Assembly (NCBI GenBank): GCA_036874045.1
Contig: CM072344.1
Span: forward strand, 13,116,501 to 13,180,500
Reading direction: 5' to 3'
Length of the DNA: 64,000 bases
Origin: Cymodocea nodosa
Lineage: Eukaryota; Streptophyta; Magnoliopsida; Alismatales; Cymodoceaceae
This document shows positions 14,851-49,967 of this stretch, piece after piece. Made by a program: the position numbers and the translations under genes. The notes beneath the pieces were generated by a model that saw only the letters and a program-made list of their open reading frames with translations, had not been told where the DNA came from and made no database searches. Every line of letters begins with the position of its first letter. Position 1 is the stretch's first letter.

Positions 14851-14853
14851 CCA

Positions 14854-22383: not shown

Positions 22384-24493
22384 TGTTTGAGTTTTCTCAA
22401 CACTACACCAGAATATCTGATTAGATCTCCAATAACGTACCAGAAAAACTTGGATTTATTACTTTTATTTTTACTTAGTTAATTTATCTTTATGCCTATT
22501 CTTTTCTTTAAGAAGTAAACAAACAACTTTTAATACAATTTAGATATTAATTCTAATTTGTACTTTAACTGCAAGTGCATAGTGTCTATTGTATCTGTGT
22601 GCAAGTACAAGTTGATCCCATAGGAAATTGCTTAAGAGTTTAGAACTATCCGTTTGTTAACAATCAAATTTATATCTTCAATAAGCCCTCCGTTGAATTA
22701 CAGTTAACTCAACAGACAAAGTTCGTTGAATTATGGCTAACTCAACGGACTAACCTCGTAGACTTAAGTTAACTCCACAAGCCTGTCTTTGCTTTTTAAT
22801 ACTGTTATTTACAGAGGAATTTAGCCAACCATTAGGCGATTCCACAGATTGTAAATAACATCAATTAAGCTCTTTAATGTTAGTAAACACTCGATTTATC
22901 ATTAAGCATACTAACATTCAGATAATTCACATAGTAACTATTAAAATCTTTAAGTCTTTTGAACGAACCAATTTCAGTAAACTGTAAAACTAAAACTAAC
23001 ATAAAACAATCACAACACTGATAAATATAACATTAATCACGATACAACACAAACAATACAACACTCAAATACAACATACAAACATAGATAAATTATTTTT
23101 GGTATTTTTGTTTTAATATGAACATGGAAATGGGCGAAATGTGAAATGTAAAGTAATCTCAATTGACAGTAAATACTTCCGTCACTACTTGCAATGCGAT
23201 TACACCACTGAAAATTAAACCACTTACAATTTTGTCTCCTCTCCCTATAGAATCACGAGTCTAGAATTGCAAGATGATCTCCTCTTCAGCATACAGACAT
23301 CAACCCGAAGCCAAGGCTAGAAGTTTTACGATCTCCTGAAATATGAGTCAGCGCTTGGTGAAAATGGCTTCCCTTCCCGCGACGCTATCACTCCTCACAG
23401 TGGTTGTCAGACATTGTGTTTGGCTCGGAATCGACTTGACATCAAGAAAGTATTCTCACAGACCTTCGATGGTTGGTGATTGTGGTGGTTATGGTGGTGG
23501 TAACGATGGTTGGTGTGGTACTTTGGAGAATTGCCGATACTGCCTGTAGAAAGCTCGGTGTTCCTCCTCTGTACACACTGGCCATCCATCGATCACACAC
23601 ACACTTTACTTTTTTTTCTTCTTTTCTTTTATATTTCTTTAGTAGTAACTGCTTCTGCTTGAATGGTCGGTTGGATTTCCTTCATTCATATCAATGACGA
23701 TGCTTTCTTCTCCTTACGCGATACGTGCAATCGTGGTTTTTCTTCCAACTGTCTTGTTTCTGCAACCGCTACAGTGGCATATTAGAAAATAAATAGTCCG
23801 TGGAGTTACAGATAACTCAACGGACTTTCTTCATTAATTTAACTATAAAACACGTGCATAAATTTAACTATCTGATGCTCAGGTGCATTTCGGATACTTA
23901 CAAACTTAACTATCCGATGCTCAGATGCATTTCAGATAGTTATAGATAACTCACCGAAAGTCCACTTAAGTCACTTTACTAGAACATGACACGTGTCCAC
24001 AGCTATTTTATAAATAAAAAGAGATTTCAGAGAGTTACACATATAACTATCCGATGCCCAACTACAATTTCGGATAGTTAGAGATAACTCACCGAAAGTT
24101 CACTTAAGTCATGCATTATGGTTTCGACATGTGTACTTCAGGAAATAATAAAATATTCTTTTAAAACATAACTATTCGGCAGTTTAAACATAACTATCTG
24201 ATACATGTTCAGTCTGTTAAACATAACTGTCTGAAATATGTTCGGTATGTTAAACATAACTGTCCGAAATATTAGAAAATTCGGATACTTAAGAATTTCA
24301 CAGCCTGCAACTTACCGACAGTTCAGAAATGTACTAAATTAACATTAATTCCCCAAAATTAAGTAGTAATTCTAATTAAAGCATATAACAGTGCAATTAT
24401 AACATAATGACTTAATTCTCATATGATAAGCTAAATATTATGCAATTAACCATCATTTAACCGTTAATAATATGCACTTTTTAATTCTAAACA
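22384..24493 (-). repeat. Solo LTR A of the Athila-like family
   Basis: 2,110 bp, reverse orientation (plus strand starts TGTTTGAGTTTTC, ends TTCTAAACA). Exact 5-bp duplication TGATC at 22379-22383 and 24494-24498. No internal Gypsy sequence is adjacent, so it is a solo LTR left by recombination. Carries the family's CCGTTGAGTTA and AACTATCCGA motifs. Confidence 0.93.
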
Positions 24494-30675: not shown

Positions 30676-31457
30676 GTTGGTGATAAGGTGGTGGTGATAA
30701 TGTGGTGGTGATAATGGTTGGTGTGGTACTTCAGAGAATTGCCGACACTGTCTGTAGAAAGCTCGGTGCTCCTCCTCTGTACACACTGGCCATACCCATA
30801 GATCACACACACTTTACTTCTTTTTCTTCTTTTCTTTTATATTTCTTCAGTGGTAACTACTTCTGCTTGAATGGTCGATTGGATTTTCTTCATTCATATC
30901 AACAACGATGCTTTCTTCTACCTATGCGATACGTGCAATCGTGGTTTTTCTTCCAACTGTCCTATTTCTGCAACCGCTATAGTGGCATATTAGAAAATAA
31001 ATAGTCCGTGAAGTTACAGATAACTCAACGGACTTACCTCGTTGATTTAACTATAAAACACATGCATAAATTTAGCTATCCGATGCTTAGGTGCATTTCG
31101 GATACTTATAAACTTAACTATCCAATGCCTAGATGCATTTCGAATAGTTACAGATAACTCACCGATATATAACTTAAGTAAATCAATCAGATCTCGACAC
31201 GTGTCAACAGTAGTTTAATAATAAAAGAAACATTTTGGAGAGTTACAGGTCTAACTATCCGATGCTCAGATGCATTTCGGATAGTTATAGATAACTCACC
31301 GAAAGTCCACTTAAGTCACTTTCCCAGAACATGGCACGTGTCCACAACTATTTTATAAATAAAAGGAGATTTTGGGGAGTTACACATATAACTATCCGAT
31401 GCCCAACTGCAATTTTGGATAGTTATAGATAACTCACTGAAAGTTCACTTAAGTTAT
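30676..31457 (-). repeat. LTR D, partial copy
   Basis: Fragment of the same LTR, reverse orientation. It starts inside the TGG/TGA-rich trinucleotide stretch and stops at CACTTAAGTTAT where LTR E begins. It corresponds to about 29650-30290 of copy C. Its TGATAAGGTGGTGGTGATAA variant is shared with copy G, not C. Confidence 0.88.
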
Positions 31458-33689
31458 TGTTTAGAATGAAAAAGTGCATATAATTAACGGTTAAATGATG
31501 GTTAATTGCATAATATTTAGCTTATCATATAAGAATTAAGCCATTATGTTATAATTGCACTGTTATATGCTTTAATTGAAAAATCTGCTTAATTTTGGGG
31601 AATTAATGTTAATTTAGTACATTTATGAACCATCGGTAAGTTGCAGGCTGTGAAATTCTTAAGTATCCGAATTTTTTGATATTTCGGACAGTTATGTTTA
31701 ACATATTGAACAAATTCGAACAGTTATGTTTAACTGACCGAATATGTATCAAATAGTTATGTTTAAATTGCCGAACAGTTATGTTTTGAGAGAATATTTT
31801 ATTATTTCCTAAAGTACGCGTGTTGAAATCAGAATAAATGACTTAAGTGAACTTTCGGTGAGTTATCTATAACTATCCGAAATTGCAGCTGAGCATCGGA
31901 TAGTTATCCCTGTAACTCTCCGAAATCTCTTTTTATTTATAAAATAGCTGAGGGCATGTGTCATGTTCTGAGTAAGTGACTTAAGTGGATTTTTGGTGAG
32001 TTAGCTGTAACTATCCGAAATGCATCTAAGCATCGGATAGTTAAACCTGTAACTCTCTGAAATGTTATTTTATAATTAAAACTGCTATTGACACGTGTCG
32101 AGATCTAGTAGATTTACTTAAGTTATATATCAATGAGTTATCTGTAACTATCCGAAATGCATCTGAGCATCGGATAGTTAAGTTTATAAGTATTCAAAAT
32201 GCACCTGAGCATCAGATAGTTAAAATTATGCACGTGTTTTATAGTTAAATCAACGAAGAAAGTCCGTTGAGTTATCTGTAACTCCACGGACTATATATTT
32301 TCTATCTGTAATTATTGCCACTGTAGCAGTTGTAGAAACAAGACAGTTGGAAGGAAAAACCACGTTTGCATGTATCGCACAGGAGAAGGAAGCATCGTCG
32401 TTGATATGAATGAAGGAAATCCAACCGATCATTCAAGCAGAAGCAGTTACTACTGAAGAAATATAAAAGAAAAGAAGAAAAAAAAGAAGAGTGTGATCAG
32501 TAGGTGATCGGTATGTGATCGATGGGCGGACAGTGTGTGCAGAGGAGGATCGGCGTCACAATTCTCTGAAGTACCATACCAAACATCACCACATCACCAT
32601 CACCACACCATCATCACCACCATAATCACCAACCATCGGAGGTCTATGAGGATACTTGCCTGATGTCGGGTCGATTCCGAGCCAAACACAGTGCCTGACA
32701 ACCACTGTGAGGAATGATTGCGTCGCGGGAAGGGAAGCCATTTTCACCAAGCGCAGACTTATATTTCAGGAGATCGTAAAGCTTTTAGCCTTGGCTTTGG
32801 GTTGATGCCTGTATGCTGAAGAGGAGATTATCTTGCAATTCTGGACTCGCGATTCTATAGGGAGAGGAGACAGAATTGTAAGTGGTTTAATTTTTAGTGG
32901 TGTAATCACGCTGTAAGTAGTGTTGGAAGTATTTACTATCAAGTGAGATTACTTTACATTTCACCTTTTGCCCATTTCCATGCTCACATCAAAACAAAAA
33001 TACCAAAAACAATTTATCTTTGTTTGTATGTTGTATTTGAGTGTTGTATTGTTTGTGTTGTATCGTGATTAATGTTATCTGTATCAGTTTTGTGATTGTT
33101 TTATGTTAGTTTTAATTTTATAGTTTACTGAAATTGGTTCGTACAAAAGACTTAAAGATTTTAATGGTTACTGTTTGAATCATCTAAATGTTAGTATTGC
33201 TTAATGATAAATCCAATATTAACTAGTATTAAAAAGCTTAATTGATGTTATTTACAATCTGTGGAATCGCCTAGTGGTTGGCCGAATTCCTTTGTAAATA
33301 GTAATATTATAAAGAAGAGACAAACTTGTGGAGTCAACTTAAGTCCACGAGGATAGTCCGTTGAGTTAGCCATAACTCAACGAACTTTGTCCGTTGAGTT
33401 AACTGTAATTCAACGGAGTGCTTATTGAATATAAATTTGAATTGTTAACAATCAAACAGTTCTTAAATTCGTCAGCAATTTCCTGTGGGATCGACCTGTA
33501 CTTGCACACTGATACAATAGACATTGTGCACTTGCAGTTAAAGTACAAATTGAAATTAATATCTAAATTGTATTAAAGGTTGTTTGTTTACTTCTAAAAG
33601 AAAGAATAGGCATAAAGATAAATTAACTAAGTAAAAACAGAAGTAACAAATCCAAGTTTTTCTAGTGTAATGCTGGGAAAATCCAAACA
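31458..33689 (+). repeat. 5' LTR (copy E) of the Athila-like element
   Basis: 2,232 bp, TGTTTAGAATG...ATCCAAACA. Contains three tandem 137-138-bp modules, each with the dyad AACTATCCGA...TCGGATAGTT (31871-31905, 32009-32042, 32146-32179) plus a degenerate fourth at 32187-32222. Also has a G-box ACACGTGTC at 32091 and GTTGAGTTA...TAACTC dyads at 32263-32290, 33357-33382 and 33390-33417. Confidence 0.95.
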
Positions 33690-33696
33690 AGTTTTA

Positions 33697-33713
33697 TGGC
33701 GCCGTTGCCGGGG
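33697..33713 (+). other. Primer binding site (Asp tRNA)
   Basis: TGGCGCCGTTGCCGGGG, seven bases after the LTR, is an exact 17-base complement of the plant Asp-tRNA 3' end, the primer usual in Athila-type elements. Confidence 0.93.
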
Positions 33714-33752
33714 AATTGAATTGAATTGAATAGATATAAGTAACAGTTAGAG

Positions 33753-34043
33753 TTGTTTCGTTTTAATAGCCAGAGTTGTGTGTTTTCTTCTGTAATTGAG
33801 AATATGGCATATGCTTATGCTCAAAGATTTCTGAAACCTGTAATTAGTATATGTGAATTCTACAATTTTGAAGGACACAACATTTCTGATTGTTTGAAAT
33901 TGAGACATTTACAGATTGTTAGATCCCATGAACAACAAATGAATTATCCTCAATATAATAGAGTCGAGTATGAGAATCCTATAGTTTACCCAACTAATGG
34001 TCAGTATAGAATGTGTAATATGATGAGAGACATTGAAGTTTAG
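33753..34043 (+). pseudogene. N-terminal pol segment with zinc-knuckle-like motif
   Basis: First open run after the primer site. The more likely start is the in-frame MAYAYAQRF at 33804. A knuckle-like CEFYNFEGHNISDC follows (spacing C-X2-Y-X4-H-X4-C, second Cys replaced by Tyr), as in nucleocapsid. Retrotrans_gag is missing upstream. Ends at a TAG (34041-34043); the same frame goes on as DSYDRLEHSIKQNLDKLEYF. The knuckle is normally the C-terminal part of gag, so its separation from the gag domain at 42.4 kb is odd. Confidence 0.7.
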
Positions 34044-34076
34044 GATAGCTATGACAGACTAGAGCATAGTATAAAG

Positions 34077-34352
34077 CAAAATCTGGACAAACTGGAATAC
34101 TTTGTGTGTCAACAACAAGAAGTCAACCAATTAAACTATAAGGAAGCATATTCAGAACTTAAAAGGAGAGCAAAATCTGGACAAACTGGAATACTTTGTG
34201 TGTCAACAACAAGAAGTCAACCAATTAAACTATAAGGAAGCATATTCAGAACTTAAAAGGAGAGCAAAATCTGGACAAACTAGAATACTTTGTGTGTCAA
34301 CAACAAGAAGTCAATTAATTAAACTATAAAGAAGCATATTCAGAACTTAAAA
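34077..34352 (+). repeat. 94-bp unit repeated three times
   Basis: Units at 34077-34170, 34171-34264 and 34265-34352. The first two look identical; the third has a few substitutions. The unit codes for a coil-like LEYFVCQQQEVNQLNYKEAY segment. 94 is not a multiple of three, so each extra copy shifts the frame. Confidence 0.95.
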
Positions 34353-34962
34353 GGATATAATTTACGAAACTGAAAAAACCATAAAGAAAATTAATCAAAA
34401 ATTGAATGCAATGAAATTAGATGATTTGGAAACAAAATTAAAAGCATTAGACAAAAATGCAATGAAAATACAAGTTATGCAATAGGACAATGAAAATTAT
34501 AATGTTATAAACCTGCATAATTTGTAAAATATACAGCAAACAGAAAATACTAATGCAAGAGAATTTAAAGAATGCACTTTAAGACTAAAAACAATTGAAG
34601 ATCATAATCATGAAAATGATATACAGAAACATTATGAAAGTAACGAAAATCTAGAAGATGTACGTGTAACATTAAGATCTAGAACTGATATACCACCAAG
34701 AACTCAAAATGAAAATGATACGAAGGTGGATAAGAGTAAAAATCAAAATGATAATGAAAATATAGCTAAAAATCTAGAAATCAGTAAAGAACAATTTGAA
34801 TCTGCGATTGAAGCTAAAAATGATCAAACAAATCAACTAAAAGAAAAAGAGTCTTTGAAATCAAAATCTTTAGCACCCTATCTTGAAAGATTACAACAAA
34901 CAATTCCTGAAAAATAAGAAAAAATCAGAGAAATTTTTGAAAAAGTACAAGTTAACATTCCT
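34353..34962 (+). pseudogene. Pol linker, charged coiled-coil region
   Basis: Degenerate open stretches rich in Lys/Glu/Asn between the 94-bp repeats and protease (for example KLNAMKLDDLETKLKALDKN-like and 34726-34917, which ends APYLERLQQTIPEK). A TAA at 34915-34917 interrupts the frame, which then runs on in phase as EKIREIFEKVQVNIPLLDLL. In Athila polyproteins this position is the gag-protease linker. Confidence 0.65.
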
Positions 34963-36429
34963 TTGTTAGATTTATTGCAGAAAATGCCACATTGTGCTAA
35001 ATTTCTGAAGGATTGGTGTACTAAGAAAAGAGAGCGAAAAGTTCTTAGAAAGGTCTTTTTAGCTGAGCAAAGTAGTTCCCTATTTCTACCACAAATTCCT
35101 AAAAAGTTATCTGATCCTGGAATCCCTGTTATATCATGCACCATAGGAAATAACATTCTAGAAAGAACCTTAATAGACTTAGGTGCAGGTATAAATGTTA
35201 TGCCAAGTGATATATTTGCATCCTTAGGATTAGAAGGCTTAACTCCTACTAGTACAGTTATTCAATTAGCTGATAGAAGTATAAGATACCCTAGAGGAAA
35301 AATAGAGGATGTCTTAATTAAAATCAAGAATTTTATATATCCTATTGATATTGTAATTTTGGATTTCCAACAAATTAAGCATAAAAATAGTAATACATCT
35401 TTAATTTTGAGAATGCCATTTTTAGCAACATCAGGGGATGTTATAAATTGTAAAACTGGAGTAATGAAGTTAGCATATGGTAATGAGAATACTCAATTAA
35501 ATATTTTCAAACCAGAAAGGTTTGAGGAGTTAGAAATGTCCTTACACACCATAGACTTTTTAGAGGATGAAGGAGGTATGTTAGATGATGTGATTCAAGA
35601 AGAATTAAATAGGCAAATCAATTCTAAAACTTTAGAAGAAAGTGAAAGCATAAATATAGAAGGAGATTGGGAAGAAATTAATTTAAAAAATGATGATGTT
35701 CAGTTAGGATCTCTAGCTTCTGATGGACAGCATTTAGAATTAAAACCTTTACCTCTTGAATTAACCTATATATTTCTGGAAGATAATCGGACTTGTCCAA
35801 TCATTATTGCTTCAGATTTAAAAGAGGATCAAATAACTAAATTAAAAGATGTAGTAAAAAGTTATAAAGAAGCAATAGGATGGACTATGACTGATATAAA
35901 AGGGTTAAGTTCAACTTTATGCTATCACCACATATATTTAGAAGAGAATACTAAACTTGTTAGAATGCCTGAAAGGAGATTAAATCCGAACCTTAAAGAA
36001 GTAGTCAGGAAAGAAATAGTTAAATGGTTAGATAATGATATAATTTATCCAATTTTTGATAGCTCGTGGGTTAGTCCAATCCATGTAGTTCCCAAGAAAT
36101 CAGGATTAACAGTTATTAGGAATGAAAGTCAAGACTTGATACCTATTAGAATTCAATCAGGCTGGAGAGTATGTATAGACTATAAAAAGTTGAATGCTGT
36201 GACTAAGAAAGATCATTTTCCCTTACCTTTTATAGATCAAATGCTGGAAAGATTAGTAGGGCAAGAATATTTTTGTTTCCTAGACGGGTATTCAGGGTAT
36301 AATCAAATTCTAGTAGCATTAGAGGATCAAGAGAAAACAACTTTCACCTGTCCTAATGGAACTTATGCTTTTAAAAGAATGCCATTTGGATTATGCAATG
36401 TGCTAGCTACCTTTCAAAGGTGTGTGTAG
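34963..36429 (+). pseudogene. Athila-like protease and N-terminal reverse transcriptase
   Basis: Starts within DLLQKMPHCAKFLKDWCTKK, the standard lead-in to Athila protease. Protease active site reads TLIDLGAGINVMPSDIF (D-L-G in place of D-S/T-G). RT begins near residue 315 (WLDNDIIYPIFDSSWVSPIH) and shows GWRVCIDYKKLNAVTKKDHF, FLDGYSGYNQI and AFKRMPFGLCN. A TAG at 36427-36429 interrupts immediately before the catalytic motif; the same frame continues at 36430. No frameshift. Confidence 0.93.
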
Positions 36430-37536
36430 GGCATATTTACTGGAATGACTGAAGATTTTTTAGAAATATTTATAGATGATTTTACTGTGTATGGCAACTC
36501 ATATGAAGTGTGTTTAAGCAATTTAGACCAAATATTAAAATGTTGTGTGGAAAAAAATCTTGTTTTAAATTGGGAAAAATGTCACTTCATGGTTAAACAA
36601 GGAATAGTCTTAGGGCATGTTGTTTCTAAGAAAGGGTTGGAAGTAGATAAAGCTAAAATAGAAGTAATTTGTAATCTACTAGAACCTAAATCAGTAAAAG
36701 ATATTAGATCATTTCTAGGACATGCTGGTTTTTATAGAAGATTTATTAAAGACTTTAGTAAGATAGCTAGACCATTAACTAATCTATTAAAAGATGTTCC
36801 ATTTAACTTTGATAAAAATTGCAAGGAAGCATTTTTCAGACTTAAGACTAGTTTAATTTCAACTCCTATAATTCAAGCACTTGATTGGAACCATCCATTT
36901 GAATTAATGTGCGATGCTTCTGATTTTACTGTAGGAGCAGTGTTAGGACAGAAGATAGAAAACTCTCTTAGAGTGATTCATTATGCAAGCAAAACCTTAA
37001 ATGATGCTCAAGTTAATTACACAACTACTGAAAAAGAATTATTAGCTATTGTGTTTGCTTTAGAAAAGTTTAGATCATATCTGATTGGAGCTAAAGTAAT
37101 AGTATACACGGATCATTCAGCTCTTAAACATCTAATAAAGAAAAAAGAAACTAAACCTAGATTGATCCGATGGATATTATTATTGCAAGAATTTGATCTA
37201 GAAATTAAAGATAAAAAAGGTTGTGAGAATGTAGTAGCAGATCATTTATCAAGATTACAAATAGAAAAATCAAATATTGAAATTAAGGATAATTTTCTTG
37301 ATGAACAATTAATGACCATCAATACAATGCCTTGGTATGCAGACATAGTTAATTACTTAGTTACTTGTTTAACACCTAAGGATTGGAATAGACAGGATAA
37401 GAAATTGTTTCTCTCAAAAGTAAAATATTACTATTGGGAAGACCCATACTTATTTAAAAAATGTCCTGATCTGGTTTTAAGGAGGTGTGTTCCAGAAACT
37501 AAATATTCGAGCATATTGTCTTTCTGTCATGACTAA
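36430..37536 (+). pseudogene. Athila-like RT catalytic part, RNase H, integrase N-terminus
   Basis: In frame with the preceding segment. RT active site is [12 protein letters not shown] (F-I-D-D variant). Then [20 protein letters not shown], the thumb, and RNase H with [37 protein letters not shown] and [11 protein letters not shown] (acidic residues present). It ends in a H...C zinc-binding lead to integrase at SFCHD, where a TAA (37534-37536) interrupts; frame maintained. Confidence 0.94.
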
Positions 37537-38631
37537 GCTTGTGGAGGACATTTTGGTTCAGGGAAAACTGCTGCAAAAATTCTGCAATGTGGGTTTTATT
37601 GGCCAACACTATTCAAAGATGCTCATAAATATTGCTTAAGTTGTTTAAGATGTAAACAAATAGGAAGAATATCAAAGAGGAATATGATGACTCTTAATGC
37701 TGTTGTTGAGGTTGAAATCTTTGATGTGTGGGGAATAGATTTTATGGGTCTATTTCCTATGTCTAATCAATTTAATTACATATTGTTGGGGGTGGATTAT
37801 GTATCTAAATGGATAGAAGCTATTCCTACAAAAACTAATGATAACAAAGTGGTAATACAATTTATAAGAACAAATATATTTGCGAGATTTGGAATACCTA
37901 AAGCTATTATCAGTGATAGAGGAACTCATTTCTGTAATAGAAGTTTTGAAGCCTTAATGAAGAAATATGGAATAAACCACAAAATTGCAACATCATATCA
38001 TTCGCAAACAAGTGGACAAGTAGAAAGTGCAAACCAACAAATTAAATTAATCTTGGAAAAAGTAGTAAATCCTACTAGAACAGATTGGGCTAATAGATTG
38101 ATAGATGCACTTTGGGCTTATAGAACTGCTTATAAAACGAGCTTAGGTATGTCACCTTTTAGGCTAGTATATGGTAAAAGTTGTCATTTACTTGCTGAAA
38201 TAGAACATAAAGCTTATTGAGCATTAAAAACTCTGAACACTAATTTAAATCTAGCTGTTGAAAATAGAAAAATGCAACTAATTGAATTAGAAAAATTTAG
38301 AAATGAAGCTTATTCGAAAACTGTAAGAGAAAAAGAAAAGATTAAATTTTGGCATGATAGAAAAATTATTCCTAAAAGCTTTGAAATAGGACAAGAAGTA
38401 TATCTTTATATGGCTAGACTCCATAACCATCTAGGAAAATTAAGATCTAGATGGGCAGGACCTTACATAGTTCGAAATGTTTATCCTTATGGAAGTATTG
38501 AAATTGAAAATCCTAAAAATCAGAATATATTTAAAGTAAATGGACAAAGACTTAAACCTATTCTGAAAACACCAAAAAACTCCTTTGGAATTATAGAAGT
38601 CAGAGTAGAGGACTACTCGTGCTTTACTTAG
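37537..38631 (+). pseudogene. Athila-like integrase
   Basis: Continues in frame after the TAA: zinc-binding part ([23 protein letters not shown]), catalytic core with D in [12 protein letters not shown] in [11 protein letters not shown] and E in [12 protein letters not shown], and a C-terminal GPF/GPY-type module (LRSRWAGPYIVRNVYPYGSI). No chromodomain. One in-frame TGA at 38218-38220 replaces the tryptophan expected in HKAYWALK. Ends at TAG 38629-38631. All three acidic residues are present. Confidence 0.94.
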
Positions 38632-39225
38632 TAAGAAATCAGTTTTTATGTTTATATATGTATATATAAAAAAAAACATTAAAAATATATATAAAACATA
38701 AAAATAGTTGCGGTTCAACCGACTGGATCTATCGGTATGACCGGAACATTAAAAAAATTGTATATTAATTTTCAGGAAAAAATATTGGTTTTACCGAAAC
38801 ATAGTATCGGTTCAATCGAAAGAAAAATAAAAAAATAAAAAATATTTAGGTCTGACCGAAACATAGTATCGGTTAAACTGGTAAAAAAAAAAAAACCAGA
38901 AAAACTATTCTCTATAATATTTTTATTATATTTGCTTGTACGGGGAGTCCGTTGAGTTACGCTTAACTCAACGAGCTTACTCCGTTGAGTCTTAAGTTAG
39001 TCAACGAGCTTATTCCGTTGAGTTAACTGTAACTCAACGGAGTACTGTAGATAAGACCGTAGATAAAAGAGTAATAGTTGGTTTGGGAAATGACCTGATT
39101 ACTTGTCTAAAACTTAGGGCTTATTTAAACTAAAACCTAGGGTTTTGGGGGCATTATCCGGTAAATCATTTAGAATCTAGAACATTAGAAATCAGAGCGA
39201 TTCCGTGCTCTTGTGTAACTCTACG
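38632..39225 (+). other. Spacer between pol and ORF2 with dyad repeats
   Basis: A-rich, with several CGGTT(C/T)(A/G)ACCGA-like words at 38700-38885 (GGTTCAACCGAC, GGTTCAATCGAA, CGGTTAAACTGG). Then three tandem GTTGAGTTA/TAACTCAAC dyads (38948-38974, 38981-39007, 39014-39041) like those of the LTR. No coding content recognised. Confidence 0.75.
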
Positions 39226-41456
39226 ATGAGGAAGATGATGCTTGAATTCTGGGAAGAGGCTGTTGATACATCAGAATTTTTGAAGGAATCAGAAGAGTGG
39301 CACACGCGGCAGAAGATCAGAAATACGATAAGAGAGAAAGAGCTATAGAAGGTAGAATCAGAACTTTTCAATTTTAGAAGAGATTTAGTAGATTTGGGTA
39401 TACAAATACCCCAAATAATGGAAACACGAATCAGAATAGCAACAGAAATAGTTGTAAGCAAAGAAAGAAAGATACGATCAAACAATGAAGTAGCCCTAGA
39501 ATTAATCCAACGTAAGTCTCGGCTCTGGTTCAAAAGACGAATCTGTAGACGAGCTAAATGGGCAATCTAGGAGCAAGAAAGGAAAGAAAATGAAGAAGAG
39601 ACAACTGAAGAACAAGAGGAACCAACTGCTGAAAGACCTGTTCTTGAGGAACAGGAGTCAGTACCTCAAGTTCAGCCATTTAAGCCATTGGCACAAGCAG
39701 AAATGATGGGGCCTTCGATTGAAGAAGAAATAAGAGAATTTGCAGAACTGGTTCAAGTTGGGAAGAACCAAGGAGAATCAGAAGATTTGGCAGTGGCTAA
39801 AGCACACCTAGTGTTTGATGCACTGTACAAAAAGAGGGCTGTAGAAAAGTTGAAAGCTCAATATAAAATTAAAGTGGAACAACATTAAGAAGCTACTGCA
39901 GAACTGCTGCCAAACCTGCTGCAAAAGGAGATGAAGATGGTCCTTCGAGATCAGTAATTATAGGCAAAGTTAAATAGGAAGAGTTAGTACCTATGACTCG
40001 AAGGCTTGCAGAGCCTATTTTTATAGATTTAATTTCAGAAGATGAAGAGGGAGAACAGGCACAACTAATCAGAAAAAAGAAAGGAAAAGAAAAAGTGCCT
40101 GAATATGAAGAAATTAAATCTGAAGTACCAATTTTTACAAGGCCTATGGAGCAGATTTTTATTAACCTGCTATCCGATTCTGAGGAGGAGCAGGAGGAGG
40201 AAAGAAAAGAAAAAAATCAGGCTGAAATTAGTCTGCAGCCTGTACAAGAAGAAACAGAAATTAGGGTAGAAACTAAATTGCCCGTGACTCCATCCCAGTC
40301 TATTACAGAATCAGAAAGAACAGTAACAGAACAGATTGGTAGTTAGGAGGAAGAAGAAAGAGTAGAAAATGAAGAGGATGAAAGAAGCCATTTGGACAAA
40401 AATAATTTCACAGATTCCACTGAAGAGCAAGAAACTCTTCAGCAAATTAAGGAAAGAATTCAAGACAGAGTGGAGATTTCTGTCGGCTCACCACCATAGA
40501 CAGAAGCAGAAGCAAAAATTTAGGAATCTGAAGAGAATGCCCAAATGCAGCCTATGCTAGAGGAAGATCAAGTACAAACCCCTTTGGAGCAACAAAGTCA
40601 CCTTCCTGACCCGACTGAAACAACAATTTTGAATGAAGTACACTTTAGTAGTCAAGAAGCTTATACTAAATATCAAGAAATAAGGGGTTACGATATTATT
40701 TACAGTAGACCAGTAAATTGGGATGGAATGCAAGAAATCAAAGATCTATTTGAATTCCAAGGTCTACTGCAATTTATATCTCAAGAAAGAGGGCATGTGG
40801 TATATGAGAATTTAGTGCCCTATTTCTATGCAAATTTAAGAGAAGGAGAAGGAGAATTAATTTCAAACGTGGAGGAAGTTGATGTACAGATAACACTAGA
40901 GCTTCTCCACAACATTTTTGGTTTAAAGAATAAAGGAACAATAATTTTGGAAGATACAACTATAGTTGAATGGACTGAGCAGCAAATTAAGGATTATTTA
41001 GCTATCAATCCTAGTGTACCATTATTAAACAGATTGAAGCATTTAAATGGTAAAGCACACATGGTAGCTAACATTCTGATTAAGAATGTCTATCAACGAC
41101 AGGGCCATGACATAGAATTAAGTCAATTTGTCAAATGGGCCACGTATGCAGTTATAAATAAGATCTAAATAAATTGGTCTGTAATTTTTATCTCCAAGCT
41201 GAAAACAGTGAAGAAGAAATTATTTTATGGAGATTTGATTCCACTGCTAATGGTAGATTGTATCGATTTCACTAAATGGACATAAAAAAGGATCAGATCT
41301 AGAACCATTTCAGTGAAAGAATACAAGAATTTTGTAGCTCCAGAACTAGCTGTACCTTCTGGAGGAATTTTGGGAGCAGTAGAAAGGATAAAGCAATTAG
41401 AGCAGCAATTAGAAAAACTCCAAAAGGAAGTAGATGAACTTAGGCATAGAGATTAA
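39226..41456 (+). pseudogene. ORF2: acidic/coiled-coil protein with plant-transposon-protein-like domain
   Basis: Begins MRKMMLEFWEEAVDTSEF. 39226-39888 is one frame with two stops (TAG after REKEL, TAG after KWAI). A frame change near 39890-39990 precedes 39993-41456, also with in-frame stops. The middle part is strongly acidic and holds two short related motifs, EPIFIDLISEDEEGE and EQIFINLLSDSEEEQEEE, that resemble SUMO-interaction motifs. The C-terminal globular part (EVHFSSQEAYTKYQEIRGYD, VVYENLVPYFYANLREGEGE, FGLKNKG) resembles the 'putative plant transposon protein' domain often found in Athila/Tat elements. It ends in a coil, IKQLEQQLEKLQKEVDEL. Function unknown; not an obvious envelope protein. 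Confidence 0.7.
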
Positions 41457-42395
41457 ATTCTATTGATTCGTCTACTTATGTGAAATTGTATGATGTACTT
41501 GTAATGTAATTGATTCATATTAATGAATATAATTTTTCAGATGCAATTTTCATACGTATTTGGATGTGAAATGAATGGAATTTATTGAATATTATGTAAT
41601 TTGTGGAACTTTATGAATGAATATGTGACAAATTTACAATTTGCTGAATGACAAGATAACTGCTTAAAAATTTCTGCATATTATAAGGTAAAATGTAAAT
41701 TCTGCTTAACATAAAATGACCTGCAAGTTAAATCTCTATATAAGATTTAGATTTAAATGAATTTTAATCAAAATGATGCATTAATGACATAGAGTTAACT
41801 TTATTACAGTTAGTAGAATGAAAAAGAAAGAAAAAAAGAACAAGAGGAACTTACGAGAGTAAAACTTAGAAGTTGCTAAGTATTAACTCAACGAAGTAAG
41901 TCCGTTGAGTTAACCTTAACTCCATGAGGTCAGTAATATAATATAAGGTCACTCCGTTAAGTTATCTGTAACTCAACGAAGTAAGTCCGTGGAGTTAGCA
42001 ACAGTAATCGACTGTATTCTGTTGAGTTATCTGTAACTCAACGAGGTTAGTTCGTGGATTAAGCAGAACAGTTATTCTTTTAACCATGAACGAAACTTCG
42101 TCGGTTTAGCGGTTACCAAAATTTGAAATGAGTAGTGGTACACGTACTCATAAAAACAGGAACCACAATGCACGTTGCAAGACACGTTCTTGCAACGAGA
42201 TTTATTCACTTTATGGATGCGTAGTATATATATGAAATAGAATGTTATTTACGAGTTACCAACACTTTTAAAAGAAAGGAGAAGGCATTGGAGGAACTGG
42301 AAGGAGAAGCAGCTGATTCAACTTCATCCGACAATAAATATTTATAGAATGGAAAGCTTCAGATTGGTATGTAATTAATCTTCTGTTATTTATTT
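41457..42395 (+). other. Spacer between ORF2 and gag with dyad repeats
   Basis: AT-rich, non-coding. Three more GTTGAGTTA...TAACTCAAC dyads at 41901-41927, 41953-41979 and 42019-42044. A donor-like GGTATGTAA at about 42365-42373 lies just before gag and may be a splice site; this is inference only. Confidence 0.65.
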
Positions 42396-43739
42396 ATGAG
42401 CACATGGACTCATTCTTTAAGTACTAAACGATTAGTAAGAACACCTACCCAGGAATTTTCATTGCAGAGGAGTACTGGAAAATTTTCTGAACTGAACTTT
42501 AACGAAATTCTTTGGGGTGTAGCTAACCTTTCTATAAAAGAGAACGTAGAGATGACTGCTCTAGTAGAAAAACCATTAGGAGAAATTCTGTATCCTGAAT
42601 TAATTGATGAACCTTCATGTATTCGATTGCCAAACTTTGAGGGAGATAGGTTTGAACTGAAATCTAATTATATTAGTCAATTACCACATTTTCATGGATT
42701 AGAAAGAGAGGATGCCTATTATTTCCTTAGAGAATTTAACGAAGTTTGTCAAATGATGAAAATGCCGAACATGAGTATAGATGCTATTAAACTTAGATAT
42801 ATCCCTTTTTCTTTAAAAGACATAGCTAAGAGATGGTTATATACTCTATCGCTTGATTCAATTTCTACATGGACTGAATTTTGCTCTGTTTTTTTGGAAA
42901 AATATTATCCAACACATCAAACGATTAAAAAGAAGAAAGAAATATTAATGTGTAGCCAAAAACGGGGTGAATCATTCTGGAAATATTTTGAAAGATTTAA
43001 AGATTTACTAACTCAATGTCCACATCATGCAATGAGTAAAGCACAATTAATAGGTATAATTTATGAAGGCATAGATGTTTCAACGAAATCTTTATTAGAA
43101 TCTACTTGTCAAAATGGATTTTTAAAATTATGTAGTGAAGAAGCATGGGCATATTTAGAAAATTTTGTAAAAAGAACTGCATAGTGGGAAAATTCGACTG
43201 AAGCTATTGCAGATAAAAGAATATTGCCAAGAGGAATGCATGAAATAGATTCAAGTACTATGCTTGAGGTGAAATTAAATGAATTAACAAAGAAAATAGA
43301 AGAGTTATCATTAAATCAAAAGCTAGCAGAAAAGAATGCAAACATAAATGACTTAGATATTATTTATGCTAGAAACCAGAGTGATAACTTGGGAAATTCT
43401 TATCATCCTAATTGGAGAAATCACCCGAATTTATCTTGGAGAAACAACAATTTCTAGGGAGGAGAAAATATAAATGAGAAGAACATAAGTTATGAAGTAT
43501 TAATTGAACAAGGAGCTAGAATAGAGAAATTAGAAAAGATAATCCAACAAGTAAACAATCGTTTAGAATTTATATTTGGAAATGCTGCAATTTAAAATCA
43601 GAATAGAAATATATCACTTAGACAAAAGGAACCAATGGAAGTTAGACCTACTAGAGGATTGCCAATACAAGCTATACCTAATCCTGTCAATAGAACGGTT
43701 AATGAAATTGATACCTCTTCTAGGAGGGCAGCTGAATGA
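42396..43739 (+). pseudogene. Gag (capsid) ORF located downstream of pol
   Basis: Retrotrans_gag domain of Athila type: DEPSCIRLPNFEGDRFELKS, QLPHFHGLEREDAYYFLREF, IKLRYIPFSLKDIAKRWLYT, STWTEFCSVFLEKYYP, GESFWKYFERFKDLLTQCPH. Then coils (LNELTKKIEELSLNQKLAEK), the Athila signature SYHPNWRNHPNLSWRNNNF and a second coil. The zinc knuckle normally between these parts is absent; a knuckle-like motif sits in pol at 33.8 kb. In-frame stops: TAG 43182-43184, TAG 43455-43457, TAA 43593-43595, final TGA 43737-43739; no frameshift. Capsid assembly is the family role. Position 3' of integrase is unlike known Athila order. Confidence 0.92.
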
Positions 43740-43929
43740 AGCAGCATATCTGAAGCAACTATCTGTATGTATATATGTTTTTTATTTTTAGTTAATAGTA
43801 TCGTAGAGTTAATTTCTAACTCAACGAACTTAGTCCGTTGAGTTATGCCTTAACTCCACGAGGGTGTGCAGTAGTTATGTTAATTTTTGTCTTTGTTAAA
43901 TTTTTGTTTGTGTTATACAGAATCGACAA
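43740..43929 (+). other. Spacer between gag and F-box ORF with dyad repeats
   Basis: Two more dyads, 43803-43828 and 43834-43862, then a T-rich run ending GTTATACAG at 43920, which looks like a 3' splice site nine bases before the F-box ATG. Use as an acceptor is unproved. Confidence 0.6.
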
Positions 43930-45069
43930 ATGGAATTGATGCAATTACCATTGGATGCACTAAGGGAAGTACTAAGTAACTTGTTAGCTAAAGATCTGTG
44001 CAGGTTGTGTTGTGTATCAAAGGAAATTAAAGACTGTATTGAAGAAAAATATTTTCAGGGACTACAAGCTGCAAAAATGACTAAGATTAGAGATGGATTC
44101 ATATGGAGGTCATTTAATCGTAGTTCAAATACCCATGAATATCTGGCTATGGAAGAAACTACTGGAATTCCACCCAATGCATTAGAAGGAATAAATTATA
44201 TTATGGGGATAGATGAAGGATTAATCATATACAAGATGAGACCAATGTATGCAAGTTTAATATTACCTGATATTTTGATGCAAAATCCTATAACATGAGA
44301 AGAATGGAATATAGGAAGACCTAATATATTTGAAGCGCCAACTGAAAATTGTGGGTCAACTTTAATATTTTCTGATAAAAATTCTGCAATTCCTAAAAAA
44401 TTATATTATTGGAGACCTACAGGAAATTAGGGTGAAGATTTATGCTTAAGTGTGTATAATTTTCTGAACAGATCTTGGAATGAAAATATTCTAATATATC
44501 TAGGACAGAAATCATTAATTAACCAAACACATGTCATACTTGATGGATATATATATCTAGTCACAGAGATATCATTAGCATATGGATCTGATTTATACAT
44601 AGTGAGCATAGACAGTTATGATGATTATATAGAAATTTTACCTGTACCGAGTGAAATAGCTAAATCACCATCTGTAGAATTTAATGAAATTCAAATAGGA
44701 ATGTGGTATAATGAAGAAGATGATCCTACTTTATGTCTAATAAGATGGTGGGATGAACTGATGAGATTTCAAATATGGATTATGGAAGACATGAATGAAT
44801 GGAAGTGGGAAGAGGAGTATATTGAAATAGATGTAGAAATAGAAATTGCTACATTACCCTGGAACCAAAAAGGATCCCTTTCTGCATTACATATCATTAA
44901 TGGTAATACACTCGTATTTGGAATTTATAATATATTGCATGTTTACAAATTAAAAAGGAACAAAAACTACATTAAAACAGAATTAATAGCAAGAAGAACT
45001 ATGCCTAAAAAGTTTGCTTGGACTGATACAATTATTCCATTTGTTCCTACTTTTCAATCATGTTCTTAA
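43930..45069 (+). pseudogene. F-box-like ORF inside the Gypsy element, two in-frame stops
   Basis: 380 codons in one frame, interrupted only by TGA 44296-44298 and TAG 44428-44430. The N-terminus reads LPLDALREVLSNLLAKDL then CRLCCVSKEIKDCIEEKYF, a good F-box (the SKP1-binding module of SCF ubiquitin ligases). The rest resembles an F-box-associated/kelch-like propeller: repeated Trp/Tyr-rich blades such as VILDGYIYLVTEISLAYGSD, LCLIRWWDELMRFQIWIM and LHIINGNTLVFGIYNILHVY. No transmembrane or envelope-like feature seen. It lies between gag and the 3' untranslated part, in element sense. Most likely a host F-box gene captured by the element, or a lineage-specific accessory gene; a decayed neighbour with separate origin is possible. 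Confidence 0.75.
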
Positions 45070-46843
45070 GCTGTGATTTTGTGTGTTTAACGTTGTGTAT
45101 TCTGCATTTATTTTTAGAAAAAAAAGAGGAATTTTGAAGTTTTCATGTTCATTTTATAAAAAAAAACAAATAAAACAAAATATCAATCCAGTTTGTTGGT
45201 ATTTATTCTGGGAAACCAATTGGCTTACTTGTGAGCCACCAAAGGCATAGGAGCCTAGGTTCCACACAAGATACTGAATTATCAATATCTATTAAATGTT
45301 ATTTTGTTATATATTTTGTGTTTATTTGGGAATGAAAAGTTTTTCAGAATCAAAAATTGGAATATGCAGAAGGAGATACAAATGGAACAAGGTATGTAAC
45401 CAATTATTTATCCTGAATTTTAAATCAAACAAAACTTTATTCATGCCTACTACAATTACTATATTTATTGTCAAATTTTTACATTAAGGACAATGCAAAA
45501 TGTAGGTATGGGGGGAGGTAATTAAAGTAACAGCCATGTAAGTATGTTAATTAAATAAATTAAAATGGTACTACAAAGTTTTGAGAAAATTGAAAATTTT
45601 TTATGAACTTGCTGTAACTATCCGATAATTGAGACTGTAAAATTTTTATAAACTGCTTGAATGTTATATTTAGAAGGCTATAGAAGATGCTATAGAATTT
45701 ATTATTTATGTAAATCTAGATATAGTATCTTATTTTTTTTTCTGAATTTCATGAGTTTAAGAGTTTCACGATTTTAAAATGAAATCCGAATACTTAATGC
45801 TTAATCAGAAAATTATCTGAAGTCCTGAAGGAGCTGAGATGTGAATTCTAGATTAAATAAAACACATATGATTAAAGATACATTTAATTTGACTAATTGA
45901 ACTTGTAGAATGATTTATGTGTAGATCTTCTTAAACTATAGAAAAAGTATGAGCTTATTGAGATGGATTCATATTTTCAGTAAATGATAGAAGTAGAACT
46001 ATATGAGGTTGGTGTTTTACTACATCTGTATTAATGAAATACGTACATATATAGTATGTGATTAAGTTTTTGTTTTGTGTTTGTAGTTTTGATTAAAAAA
46101 AAAAAAAAAGAGAGGAAAATTTTGAGAGTTTATTGACTTGTTTGATCACGAGCCTTTTGTACTTGAGCAGATAGGTTTGTTAGGATTGTTGACCTGAAAA
46201 AGGACTTTTGAAATCTGGCAACCTAAGATCCTGATCAGATCTGGGATTGTTGACTGAAAGCTCGTTACATAGGTACATTAGAAAGCTCTTGTATGATTCA
46301 AGCTTGTCAAATTAACTCTTAATGAAAAAAAAAAGAAGAAAAAAAAAAAGAGAAAGAAAAAAAAAAATACTGTTCTTAAAAGATACTAGTGTTTTGTGAA
46401 ATACAGATATCTTATGAATCGAGTATATTTTCTGTTATCTAGAATTACTGAAATATGAATCTGGAATTGACTTTTGAAGTTGTTTAATGGAGATACAATT
46501 CTTTATTCTGCTTGTCTTAATCAGATTGAATTGGATTGTACTTTGATTCGTATGTTGTTGAAATTTCTTCTAGAAATCTTATTGGAAAATTCAAGATGAC
46601 AGATGATGAAAAGAAGAACAAATGATAATATAATTAAGACCTATATGAAGATGATATACTTTGTATGTAATTTACATATATTCTAAATATCTTTGCAGGT
46701 TGATTACTGAAACATACAGAATATATTTTTATGCTAAACAGAAGAAAAAACAAAAAGGGAAGAATTAATTCTAGCAGTTTTAAAAACCAATTAATTAGAT
46801 CTTAGTTTGCTAAAGGACTAGCAAAATTTAGGTATGGGGGAAG
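45070..46843 (+). other. 3' untranslated region of the Athila-like element, with internal polypurine tract
   Basis: No coding content recognised. 45487-45517 reads GGACAATGCAAAATGTAGG then TATGGGGGGAGG, closely matching the tract before the 3' LTR at 46814-46843 (GGACTAGCAAAATTTAGG then TATGGGGGAAG). A-rich runs lie at 46094-46110 and 46323-46368. Confidence 0.75.
46831..46843 (+). other. Polypurine tract before the 3' LTR
   Basis: GGTATGGGGGAAG immediately precedes TGTTCAGAATG of LTR F. Confidence 0.85.
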
Positions 46844-47959
46844 TGTTCAGAATGAAAAGGTGCATATTATTAACAGTTAAATGATGGTCAATTGCATAAT
46901 ATTTAGCTTATCATATAAGAATTAAGCCATTATGTTATAATTGCACTGTTATATGCTTTAATTGAAGAATTTGCTTAATTTTGGGGAATTAATGTTAATT
47001 TAGTACATTTATGAACTGTCGGTAAGTTGCAGACTGTGAAATTCTTAAGTATCCGAATTTTCTGATATTTCGGACAGTTATGTTTAACAGATCGAATATG
47101 TATCAGATAGTTATGTTTAAATTGCCGAATAGTTATGTTTTGAGAGAATATTTTATTATTTCCTGAAGTACGCGTGTCGAAACTAGAATGAATGACTTAA
47201 GTGAACTTTCGGTGAGTTATCTATAACTATCCGAAATTGCAGCTGAGCATCGGATAGTTATCCTTGTAACTCTCCGAAATCTCTTTTTATTTATAAAATA
47301 GCTGAGGACACGTGTCATGTTCTAGGTAAGTGACTTAAGTGGATTTTAGGTGAGTTAGCTGTAACTATCCGAAATGCATCTGAGCATCGGATAGTTAAAC
47401 CTGTAACTCTCTAAAATGTTATTTTATAATTAAAACTGCTGTTGACACGTGTCAAGATCTGGTAGATTTACTTAAGTTATATATCGGTGAGTTATCTGTA
47501 ACTATCCGAAATGCATCTGAGCATCAGATAGTTAAGTTTATAAGTATCTGAAATGCACCTGAGCATCAGATAATTAAAATTATGCACATGTTTTATAGTT
47601 AAATCAACGAAGAAAGTCCGTTGAGTTATCTGTAACTCCACAGACTATATATTTTCTAATATGCCACTGTAGCGGTTGTAGAAACAAGACAGTTGGAAGG
47701 AAAAACCATGTTTGCACGTATTGCGTAGGAAAAGGAAGCATCGCCGTTGATATGAATGAAGGAAATCCAACCGATCATTCAAGCAGAAGTAGTTACTACT
47801 AAAGAAATATAAAAGAAAAGAAGAAAAAAAAGAAGAGTGTGATCGGTAGGTGATCGATATGTGATCGATGGGCGGACAGTGTGTGCAGAGGAGGATCGGC
47901 GTCGCAATTCTCTGAAGTACCATACCAAACATCACCACATCACCATCACTACACCATCA
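46844..47959 (+). repeat. 3' LTR (copy F), truncated
   Basis: First 1,116 bases of the LTR, nearest to copy E (both share GGCGGACAGTGTGTGCAGAG). It breaks off inside the CAC/CAT trinucleotide stretch, so no 3' end or downstream target duplication exists. Confidence 0.9.
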
Positions 47960-47972
47960 AACATAAAGATTA

Positions 47973-49967
47973 AGTACAGGTCAATCCCATAGGGAATTGC
48001 TTAAGAATTGAGAACTGTTCCATTTTTAACAATCAAATTTATATATTCAATAAGCTCTCCGTTGAGTTACAATTATCTCAACGGACAAAGTTTGTTGAGT
48101 TATGGCTAACTCAACGGACTAACCTTGTGGACTTACTTTAACTCCACGAGCCTGTATTTTCTTTTTAATACTGCTATTTATAGAGGAATTCAGCCAACCA
48201 TTAGGCAGTTCCACAGATTGTAAATAACATCAATTAAGCTCTTTAATGTTAGTAAACACTGGATTTATCATTAAGCATACTAACATTCAGATAATTCAAA
48301 CAGTAACCATTAAAATCTTTAAGTCTTTTCAACGAACCAATTTCAGTAAACTGTAAAACTAAAACAAACATAAAACAATCACAACACCGACAAAGATAAG
48401 ATTAATCACAATACAACACAAACAATACAACACTCAAATACAAAATACAATCGCAGATAAGTTGTTTTTGGTATTTTTGTTTTAATATGAACATGAAAAT
48501 GGGCGAAAGGTGAAATGTAAAGTAATCTCAGTCGACAGTAAATACTTCTGTCGTTACATGCGACACGATTACACCACTGAAAATTAAACCACTTACAATT
48601 CTGTCTCCTCTCCCTATAGAATCGTGAGTCCATAATTGCAAGATGATCTCCTCTTTAGCATACAAGCATCAACCCGAAGCCAAGGCTAGAAGCTCTATGA
48701 TCTCCTGAAATATGAGTCAGCGCTTGGAGAAAATGGCTTCCTTTCTCGCGACACGATCACTCCTCACAGTGGTTGTCAGGCACTATGTTTGGCTCGGAAT
48801 CGACCCGACATCAGGAAAGTTTCCTCATAGACCTCCGATGGTTGGTGATAAGGTGGTGGTGATAATGTGGTGATAATGGTTGGTGTGGTACTTCAGAGAA
48901 TTGCCGACACTATCTGCAAAAAGCTCGGTGCTCCTCCTCTGTACATATTGGCCATACCCATCGATCACATACACTTTACTTCTTTTTCTTCTTTTCTTTT
49001 ATATTTCTTCAATGGTAACTGCTTCTGCTTGAATGGTCGATTGGATTTCCTTCATTCATATCAACGACGATGCTTTCTTCTCCCTGCGTGATACGTGCAA
49101 TTGTGGTTTTTCTTCCAACTGTCTTGTTTCTACAACCACTACAGTGGTATATTAGAAAATAAATAGTCCGTGAAGTTACAGATAACTCAACGGACTTACC
49201 TCGTTGATTTAACTATAAAACACATGCATAAATTTAACTATCCGATGCTCAGGTGTATTTTGGATACTTATAAACTTAACTATTCGATGCTTAGATGCAT
49301 TTTAGATAGTTACAGATAACTCACCGATATATAACTTAAGTAAATCAACCAGATCTCGACATGTGTCAGTAGCAGTTTAATAATAAAAGAAACATTTCGG
49401 AGAGTTACAGGTCTAACTATCCGATGCTCAGATGTATTTCGGATAGTTATAGATAACTCACCAAAAGTCCACTTAAGCCACTTTTCTAGAACATGACACG
49501 TGTCCACAGCTATTTTATAAATAAAAGGAGATTTCGAGGAGTTACACATTTAACTATCCCTTGCCCAACTGTAATTTCGGATAGTTATAGATAACTCACC
49601 GAAAGTTCACTTAAGTCATGTATTATGGTTTCGACACGTGTACTTTAGGAAATAATAAAATATTCTTTTAAAGCATAACTGTTCGGTAGTTTAAAACATA
49701 ACCATCCGATACATGTCGGTATGTTAAACATAACTGTCTGAAATATTAGAAAATTCAGATACTTAAGAATTTCACAGCCTGCAACTTAACGACAGTTCAG
49801 AAATGTACTAAATTAACATTAATTCACCGAAATTAAGTAGATTCTTTAATTAAAGCATATAACAGTGCAATTATAACATAATGACTTAATTCTCATATGA
49901 TAAGCTAAATATTATACAATTAACCATCATTTAAATGTTAATATTATGCACTTTTTCATTCTAAATA
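47973..49967 (-). repeat. LTR G, reverse orientation, 5' (plus-strand left) end missing
   Basis: Begins AAGTACAGGTCAATCCCATA, about 220 bases inside the LTR end, and runs to TTCTAAATA. About 12 unrelated bases separate it from copy F. F and G together form an inverted repeat with arms of about 1.1 kb. Confidence 0.88.

Follow-up and report, generated by a model that had tools for sequence, protein, structure and literature searches.

Must gag precede pol in an LTR (long terminal repeat) retrotransposon? The question is raised by a stretch of 64,000 nucleotides from Cymodocea nodosa (assembly GCA_036874045.1, contig CM072344.1, positions 13,116,501 to 13,180,500 of the forward strand; the whole stretch is referred to here as the window), which carries an Athila-like LTR element, designated E, with its gag gene behind pol. 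In general, gag before pol is regarded as a fixed order in LTR retrotransposons. The best explanation of the whole, to which a probability of roughly 0.8 is assigned, is an Athila-like LTR retrotransposon lineage with gag behind pol. As judged from the copies compared, many copies from three families (E, group A and group B) share the order, and units with it have integrated in E and A. The comparisons support the reversed order as a trait of a lineage and not of a damaged copy.

Element E occupies 31458-47959 on the plus strand (host genome, 374.6 Mb), and its parts follow each other in the order LTR, tRNA-Asp primer-binding site, zinc-knuckle head, protease, reverse transcriptase (RT), RNase H and integrase, a second open reading frame (ORF2), gag, an F-box ORF and a truncated 3' LTR. 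Its features are as follows:

31458..33689, plus strand: 5' LTR, TG..CA, 2232 bp, with a splice-donor-like GTAAGT at 32878
33697..33714, plus strand: primer-binding site, exact complement of the tRNA-Asp 3' end, 7 bp past the 5' LTR
33804..34914, plus strand: pol head (start of the first ORF), with a short N terminus, a CCHC knuckle and a linker
33852-33893, plus strand: pol-head knuckle CEFYNFEGHNISDC, its second Cys changed to Tyr in the window copy
34918..36621, plus strand: protease and RT, with an in-frame stop at 36427
36883..37194, plus strand: RNase H (Pfam RT_RNaseH)
37543..38628, plus strand: integrase (zinc-binding, core and C-terminal part; H2C2, rve), with a stop at 38218
38929..39046, plus strand: palindromic CCGTTGAGTTA array upstream of ORF2, from a motif scan
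39122-39129, plus strand: TATTTAAA between the array and ORF2, from the sequence
39226..41165, plus strand: ORF2, with five stops in two counted stretches and one frame change
41540, plus strand: last base of the acceptor-like TTTTTCAG in the pol-gag spacer, intact in 7/8 copies
41860..42048, plus strand: palindromic CCGTTGAGTTA array upstream of gag, from a motif scan
42225..42233, plus strand: TATA-like box upstream of gag (TATATATA in 7/8 copies)
42367..43920, plus strand: GT..AG interval enclosing gag, exactly missing from the gag-less relative C17:2413090-2427950
42396..43739, plus strand: gag (Retrotrans_gag, NHPN region), with stops at 43182, 43455 and 43593
43801..43863, plus strand: palindromic motif copies in the gap between gag and the F-box ORF, from a motif scan
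43930..45069, plus strand: F-box ORF, with stops at 44296 and 44428
45504..45519, plus strand: internal polypurine-tract-like copy, from the sequence
46830..46843, plus strand: polypurine tract adjoining the 3' LTR, the same in copies C5a and C14
46844..47959, plus strand: truncated 3' LTR, ending at about LTR position 1156 and followed by an inverted LTR

A Pfam profile search, run on stop-free pieces of E, placed RVT_1, RT_RNaseH, H2C2 and rve within 34.9-38.2 kb on the plus strand, where an aspartyl protease match also lies (E-value 0.0017, below cut-off), while Retrotrans_gag in 42375-43181 (E-value 5.8e-20) and an F-box domain in 43900-44295 (E-value 4.8e-9) were both above cut-off. Protease, RT, RNase H and integrase share a single frame, 34528-38628, with four stops inside, and no second RNase H was found, in that no domain above cut-off lies between the end of RT_RNaseH at 37194 and the start of H2C2 at 37543. 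The N terminus of gag is of the MSxW..RLVR type common to outside relatives, the NHPN-type signature SYHPNWRNHPNLSW was found in 43185-43454, and the C-terminal part of ORF2 bears a weak likeness to PF20167 (E-value 6.6e-4; 20.1 bits against a cut-off of 45). The primer-binding site, whose tRNA we take to be tRNA-Asp, is the sole site of the window with three or fewer mismatches to the tRNA-Asp complement (0 in 100 shuffles). In the window copy the pol head is disrupted by a near-exact 94-bp triplication (34075-34356), with no fewer than three stops within 34041-34527. The first-pass annotation had placed the pol domains first and gag with its NHPN signature after them, on the same strand and before the 3' LTR, and this order was matched by both the Pfam results and the primer-binding site.

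The host genome was searched with the gag domain, 150 matches being scored among 4640 candidates, and twenty gag places were inspected, among them that of the window and a copy encountered incidentally. At 17 of the 20, integrase is found upstream of gag in the same orientation, with ORF2 in between in the E-family copies bar one that is without it; in copy C5b the loss of ORF2 appears, by eye, to be a plain deletion. The remaining three places, all of the E family, had less than 1.2 kb of upstream sequence in view. Neither protease nor RT was found behind gag within its own element at any of the 20 places, several kb being in view at 12. A separate LTR-bounded element lies about 5 kb behind one second-family gag, and copy C5a is followed by the remaining half of the element into which it had landed. 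Furthermore, 21 of 150 listed integrase matches had a gag match within 10 kb, 19 on the same strand and two on the opposite one, and among the matches listed gag was downstream in all 19 same-strand pairs, at 2.5-5.7 kb; random placement gave a mean of 0.79 such pairs and a maximum of four in 200 trials. These coordinate lists hold the best 150 of 10194 integrase candidates together with 146 of 6732 and 150 of 4640 gag candidates, and integrase matches without a listed gag are therefore uninformative. At least 146 places encode a gag 92-100% identical to that of E, according to a gag protein search.

Three elements with gag behind pol, two of the E family and one of group A, carry an LTR pair, a primer-binding site, a polypurine tract and a perfect 5-bp target duplication, i.e., the marks of an LTR retrotransposon. 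The first, C5a (C5:4627798-4644008; duplication GTCTC), holds head, pol, ORF2, gag and F-box between its LTRs and sits in the integrase gene of a second-family element which itself has gag behind pol. The second (C14:12130652-12146911; GTATT) runs from head through F-box, its F-box match being without the N-terminal part, and these two copies bear out the copy check that had been suggested for the window element. The third, the group A element C9:340271-354480, is flanked by CTACA and has LTRs that are 96.5% identical; ORF2 and F-box probes found no match in it. The gag of the family to which this third element belongs is about 50% identical to that of E. Broken 3' LTRs were observed in E copies C7 and C5:11190254. 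The earlier view of a rearranged architecture, and not two stacked elements, is thus supported by the recurrence, the target duplications and the single primer-binding site.

The 5' and 3' LTRs of E differ by 51 transitions and two transversions over 1115 sites (Kimura two-parameter distance, K2P, 0.050), distributed by context as 17/74 CG, 20/94 CHG and 14/240 CHH sites; this divergence is of the kind produced by decay of methylated cytosines. Further LTR copies within the window differ from the LTRs of E by K 0.08-0.12; for the LTR pieces of an older minus-strand element, 30676-31457 and 47972-49965, K is 0.074 (49 transitions, five transversions). Copy E seems to have inserted into an LTR of this older element, its 3' junction probably having been deleted later; the target duplication of the window copy is not assessable because its 3' LTR is truncated where the inverted LTR adjoins. 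Two solo LTRs of the same family are present in the window, at 22384-24493 (minus strand; duplication TGATC/TGATC) and 54519-56770 (plus strand; GTACA/GTATA).

At the deamination rate of the LTRs, the stops observed and expected are 4 and 5.7 in pol, 5 and 4.0 in ORF2, 3 and 2.3 in gag, and 2 and 2.1 in the F-box ORF, the scrambled stretches 34041-34527 and 39886-39977 being excluded. The observed stops fit the LTR clock, which makes it probable that gag was still open at the time of E's insertion. Among E copies the ratio of nonsynonymous to synonymous substitution rates (dN/dS), which neutral decay after insertion raises, is 0.44 for the gag N terminus and capsid (28 copy pairs), 0.46-0.51 for pol and 0.47 for integrase (10 pairs), 0.32 for ORF2 (6 pairs) and 0.38 for the C part of the F-box ORF (21 pairs), which is itself constrained among these copies. 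Values for gag against C17 were disregarded, the sequence being that of a neighbouring second-family element. These ratios indicate purifying selection on gag comparable to that on pol, and since the stop load fits the LTR clock and dN/dS resembles that of pol, gag appears to have worked from its position behind pol.

In an RT tree with 118 outside relatives, a branch (Shimodaira-Hasegawa-like approximate likelihood ratio test, SH-aLRT, 91) separates the nine host elements from the rest. They fall into three subgroups, E itself and groups A and B, with A and B each 61-64% identical to E in RT. The elements thus group among Athila-like relatives, as the first-pass annotation had expected, although the comparison with Athila references that it had proposed is realized in part, the tree holding no named one. 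In the gag tree 19 host rows and the metagenome protein P0007 form one group (100/99), and the histories of gag and pol appear to agree as far as they were compared. Six of 120 listed relatives have 330 or more residues ahead of the protease motif, three of the six with the knuckle pattern and three with the NHPN pattern; in P0011 and P0119, relatives found through pol, knuckle and NHPN run straight into protease. Scans of viral contigs with gag, RT-RNase H and a gag alignment, and a scan of genome contigs, returned no relatives, and a PDB sequence search with gag returned nothing at an E-value of 0.1 or below.

The distribution of zinc knuckles suggests how such a layout could have arisen. 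A canonical C..C....H....C knuckle heads pol in three of five E-family heads (those of the window and C14 are not canonical), in the single C17-type head, and in 2/2 heads each of groups A and B. No canonical knuckle was found in gag in eight E-family copies, the window included, or in eight group B loci; a gag knuckle is present in two of three group A loci and in L040. The split between pol and gag had been described as clean, which stands for the knuckle, found at the pol head and in no canonical form in the gag of E; it does not stand for the parts that follow the knuckle in conventional gags, which are retained on both sides, by eye as an LRSR-type motif in the pol head and an LPxxxxPNP-type motif in gag. 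A duplication of gag may have left a truncated gag C terminus (knuckle and linker) at the head of pol, with a complete gag following pol, after which group A would have kept both knuckles while E and group B lost that of gag. Group A would accordingly represent a stage with two knuckles, and loss of one could have given rise to E and B.

A gag-less relative bears on how gag is expressed. Element C17:2413090-2427950 (G000; L012, L034) comprises head, pol, ORF2 and F-box without gag, has LTRs 75-85% like those of E and is flanked by the target duplication AAAAG/AAAAG. It matches E up to the base before 42367 and resumes at the first base past 43920 (0/500 shuffles as good on each side), and no match was found with the intron sides of the interval (462 and 236 of 500 shuffles as good). 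A donor-like GTATGT at 42367, 29 bp upstream of the gag ATG, is present in 8/8 aligned copies, and an AG acceptor-like site before the F-box ORF (TATACAG, 43920, in E) in 7/7 aligned E copies. By a home-made scoring rule, the donor at 42367 ranks 14/739 and the acceptor at 43920 ranks 7/1025, with TTTTTCAG at 41540 ranking 9/1025. A leader intron was also considered; the site right before the pol ATG ranks just 403/1025, so that it is unsupported by score. With one relative as the witness, gag can probably be spliced out as an intron, and the C17 junction is most readily accounted for if genomic RNA was spliced and then reverse-transcribed.

With gag behind pol, a Gag-Pol protein that begins with Gag is impossible, and the layout as read from the ORFs forbids such a fusion. 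Gag might instead be supplied by a spliced subgenomic RNA that joins the donor in the LTR to an acceptor within the pol-gag spacer. The LTR donor GTAAGT is found in nine of ten aligned LTRs, with GTAAGC in the tenth, and acceptor-like sites occur in the pol-gag spacers (TTTTTCAG in 7/8 E copies and, by eye, TTTCAG in 5/7 group B loci and CAG in 2/3 group A loci). Removal of the gag intron would favour the F-box protein, and Pol could reach particles by using its own knuckle to bind genomic RNA, by analogy with foamy-virus Pol. A fuller scheme, for which the chances appear about even, would have gag as an alternatively retained intron whose RNA gives the coat protein when gag is kept and the F-box protein when it is spliced out, the knuckle having passed to Pol from Gag, and spliced genomes without gag being copied and inserted in their turn. 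No homologues of the F-box ORF were found at an E-value of 0.001 or below among 1243 word-sharing candidates; its product might act as a ubiquitin-ligase adaptor, in which case host defence is a possible target.

Several points weigh against a lineage with gag behind pol. The order is known here from DNA sequence and not at the RNA or protein level. Only about 0.8-1.5 kb behind gag was in view at eight of the 20 gag places. That conventional gag-pol order was found at none of the 20 and in none of the 19 same-strand integrase-gag pairs among the matches listed, which itself favours the lineage, comes with the limit that no genome search was aimed at conventional elements. The next (C) part of gag has a dN/dS of 0.68 among E copies (28 pairs). 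The flanks of the group B element C11 differ (TACAT, GTAGA), its 5' LTR apparently missing about the first 24 bp, which makes the comparison unclean. Support for a clade of the host elements' own is moderate and the tree is rooted at its midpoint, and a sister relationship of P0013 to E, seen in a protease-RT tree without the other host copies, was lost in the RT tree that included them. Finally, the gag-less junction is known from one element, in which the last LTR bases are GA, not CA.

The alternative that survives best concerns the supply of Gag, which could come from an internal promoter before gag and not from spliced LTR RNA, the gag intron then serving the F-box ORF alone. The CCGTTGAGTTA palindromes, possibly MYB-type sites, have 44 matches in the window against 0.63 expected, located in the family LTRs and three spacers of E with single matches elsewhere at 53024 and 54056. 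Their arrays precede TATA-like boxes at the LTR, ORF2 and gag, so that the layout before ORF2 and gag resembles that of the LTR itself (array 32245-32292, then TATATATT), and TATATATA is kept in 7/8 copies. A 10-bp inverted repeat, CGTTGCAAGA/TCTTGCAACG, also lies at 42173-42197, 27 bp upstream of the gag TATA-like box at 42225. TATA boxes, however, arise easily in AT-rich DNA, the CCGTTGAGTTA motif is missing from the integrase-gag spacers of other families at 11 of 11 loci, and the acceptor-like sites in the pol-gag spacers of all three families speak for splicing. Internal promoters before gag are possible, and the array, palindrome and TATA-like box as the source of gag RNA in place of the spliced one is a tentative proposal on which the balance is somewhat unfavourable.

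Alternatively, the 3' gag could be real but dispensable, with conventional gag-pol elements moving the family in trans and gag serving another role, for example in regulating or interfering with particles. The gag-less C17 did insert with a target duplication, as such a scheme allows; this reading is nevertheless unlikely given that the constraint on gag about equals that on pol, that the order is repeated in three families and that conventional order was seen at none of the 20 gag places (with the limit on that search noted above). It is distinctly improbable that C17 represents the older state and that the E lineage acquired gag afterwards through an intron-like insertion: the exact GT..AG boundaries would equally fit an inserted intron, but groups A and B are more distant from E in RT (61-64%) than C17 is (84-86%), and yet have gag already behind pol.

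The first-pass annotation had further held that LTR traces around 41.5-43.9 kb would point to a chimera or nested insertion. A short palindromic motif that also occurs in the LTR is indeed present there, whereas a buried LTR beyond this motif is unsupported. A query of LTR tail, primer-binding site and leader against the spacers before gag, ORF2 and the F-box ORF was equalled or exceeded by 9, 174 and 271 of 300 shuffles. For two further LTR parts, compared with the sequence upstream of the gag array, 23 and 12 of 300 shuffles did as well or better, while a diverged LTR copy used as a control gave a far higher score with 0/300 shuffles as good. The 3' untranslated region matched the spacer before gag with 2/300 shuffles as good, a result without explanation. 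A nested-LTR origin of the spacers was consequently set aside beyond the short motif (closest results 9, 12 and 23 of 300); a faint old LTR in the spacer is possible, and as the spacer is alike in 8/8 aligned E-family copies any such origin is old. A chimera or nested insertion unique to the window copy, in which a foreign gag fragment landed behind pol, could draw on the LTR-like motif and on the rearranged 3' end of this copy, but is very improbable indeed in view of a spacer and gag alike in those eight copies, target duplications that flank whole units of the same order elsewhere, three gag stops against the 2.3 expected since insertion, a single primer-binding site and the lack of a clear LTR tail before gag.

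Elsewhere in the window, a Copia-type element with long open frames lies at 11658-15744 (minus strand), and an ORF at 361-816 (minus strand) resembles, by eye, part of a C2-domain/synaptotagmin gene.

Among known systems, E is most like Athila (Athila4, Calypso, Diaspora and Bagy-2; the OTA clade without a second RNase H), with which it shares the tRNA-Asp site, the order protease-RT-RNase H-integrase, the lack of a second RNase H, long LTRs and an extra ORF behind pol. In some Athila members the ORF behind pol is env-like or of the PF20167 or PF03078 type. E differs from Athila in its separate gag ORF behind pol, its knuckle at the pol head and not inside gag, and its F-box ORF. In the available part of PMC1142308, Diaspora is described with a single gag-pol ORF, a knuckle inside gag and likewise a tRNA-Asp primer site, and the accessible portion of PMC6317226 gives the Athila and Ty3/Gypsy order as GAG-PROT-RT-RH-INT (RH, RNase H; INT, integrase) and takes a second RNase H as the mark of Tat. 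As its domain order is not GAG-first, E is filed here as an Athila-like variant and not as canonical Athila.

With respect to a Pol made without fusion to Gag, foamy viruses (Spumaretrovirinae) resemble the layout of E, in which a separate Pol is read from the ORF layout alone. In foamy viruses pol is expressed from a spliced RNA and gag lies 5' of pol. Their Pol is made separately from Gag, with RNA bridging both, according to the part of PMC3196705 that was available. They are nonetheless animal retroviruses and not close kin of E. In the Ty1/Copia element EVADE, as described in the accessible part of PMC8892269, a spliced, early-ended short RNA serves GAG and the full-length RNA codes for GAG-POL. 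EVADE is thus a plant element in which splicing separates Gag supply from Pol, as in the scheme proposed for E, albeit in a different superfamily. Neither foamy viruses nor EVADE are described with gag behind pol in the sources consulted. BARE-2 is reportedly a gag-less element. Retand clusters without GAG are likewise reported in the available portion of PMC11963269. Gag-less elements are found both there and among the relatives of E, although there gag is reported missing and not moved. No description of gag behind pol was met in a literature search, most subscription papers lying outside its reach. A reference survey of plant elements removed those with an unexpected domain order as likely mispredictions, as stated in the accessible part of PMC6317226, and such lineages may therefore have been filtered out. 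A reversed order shared by several families of one plant lineage would imply that gene order can change and that nucleocapsid and capsid can be divided between proteins, and would make the constraints on gene order testable.

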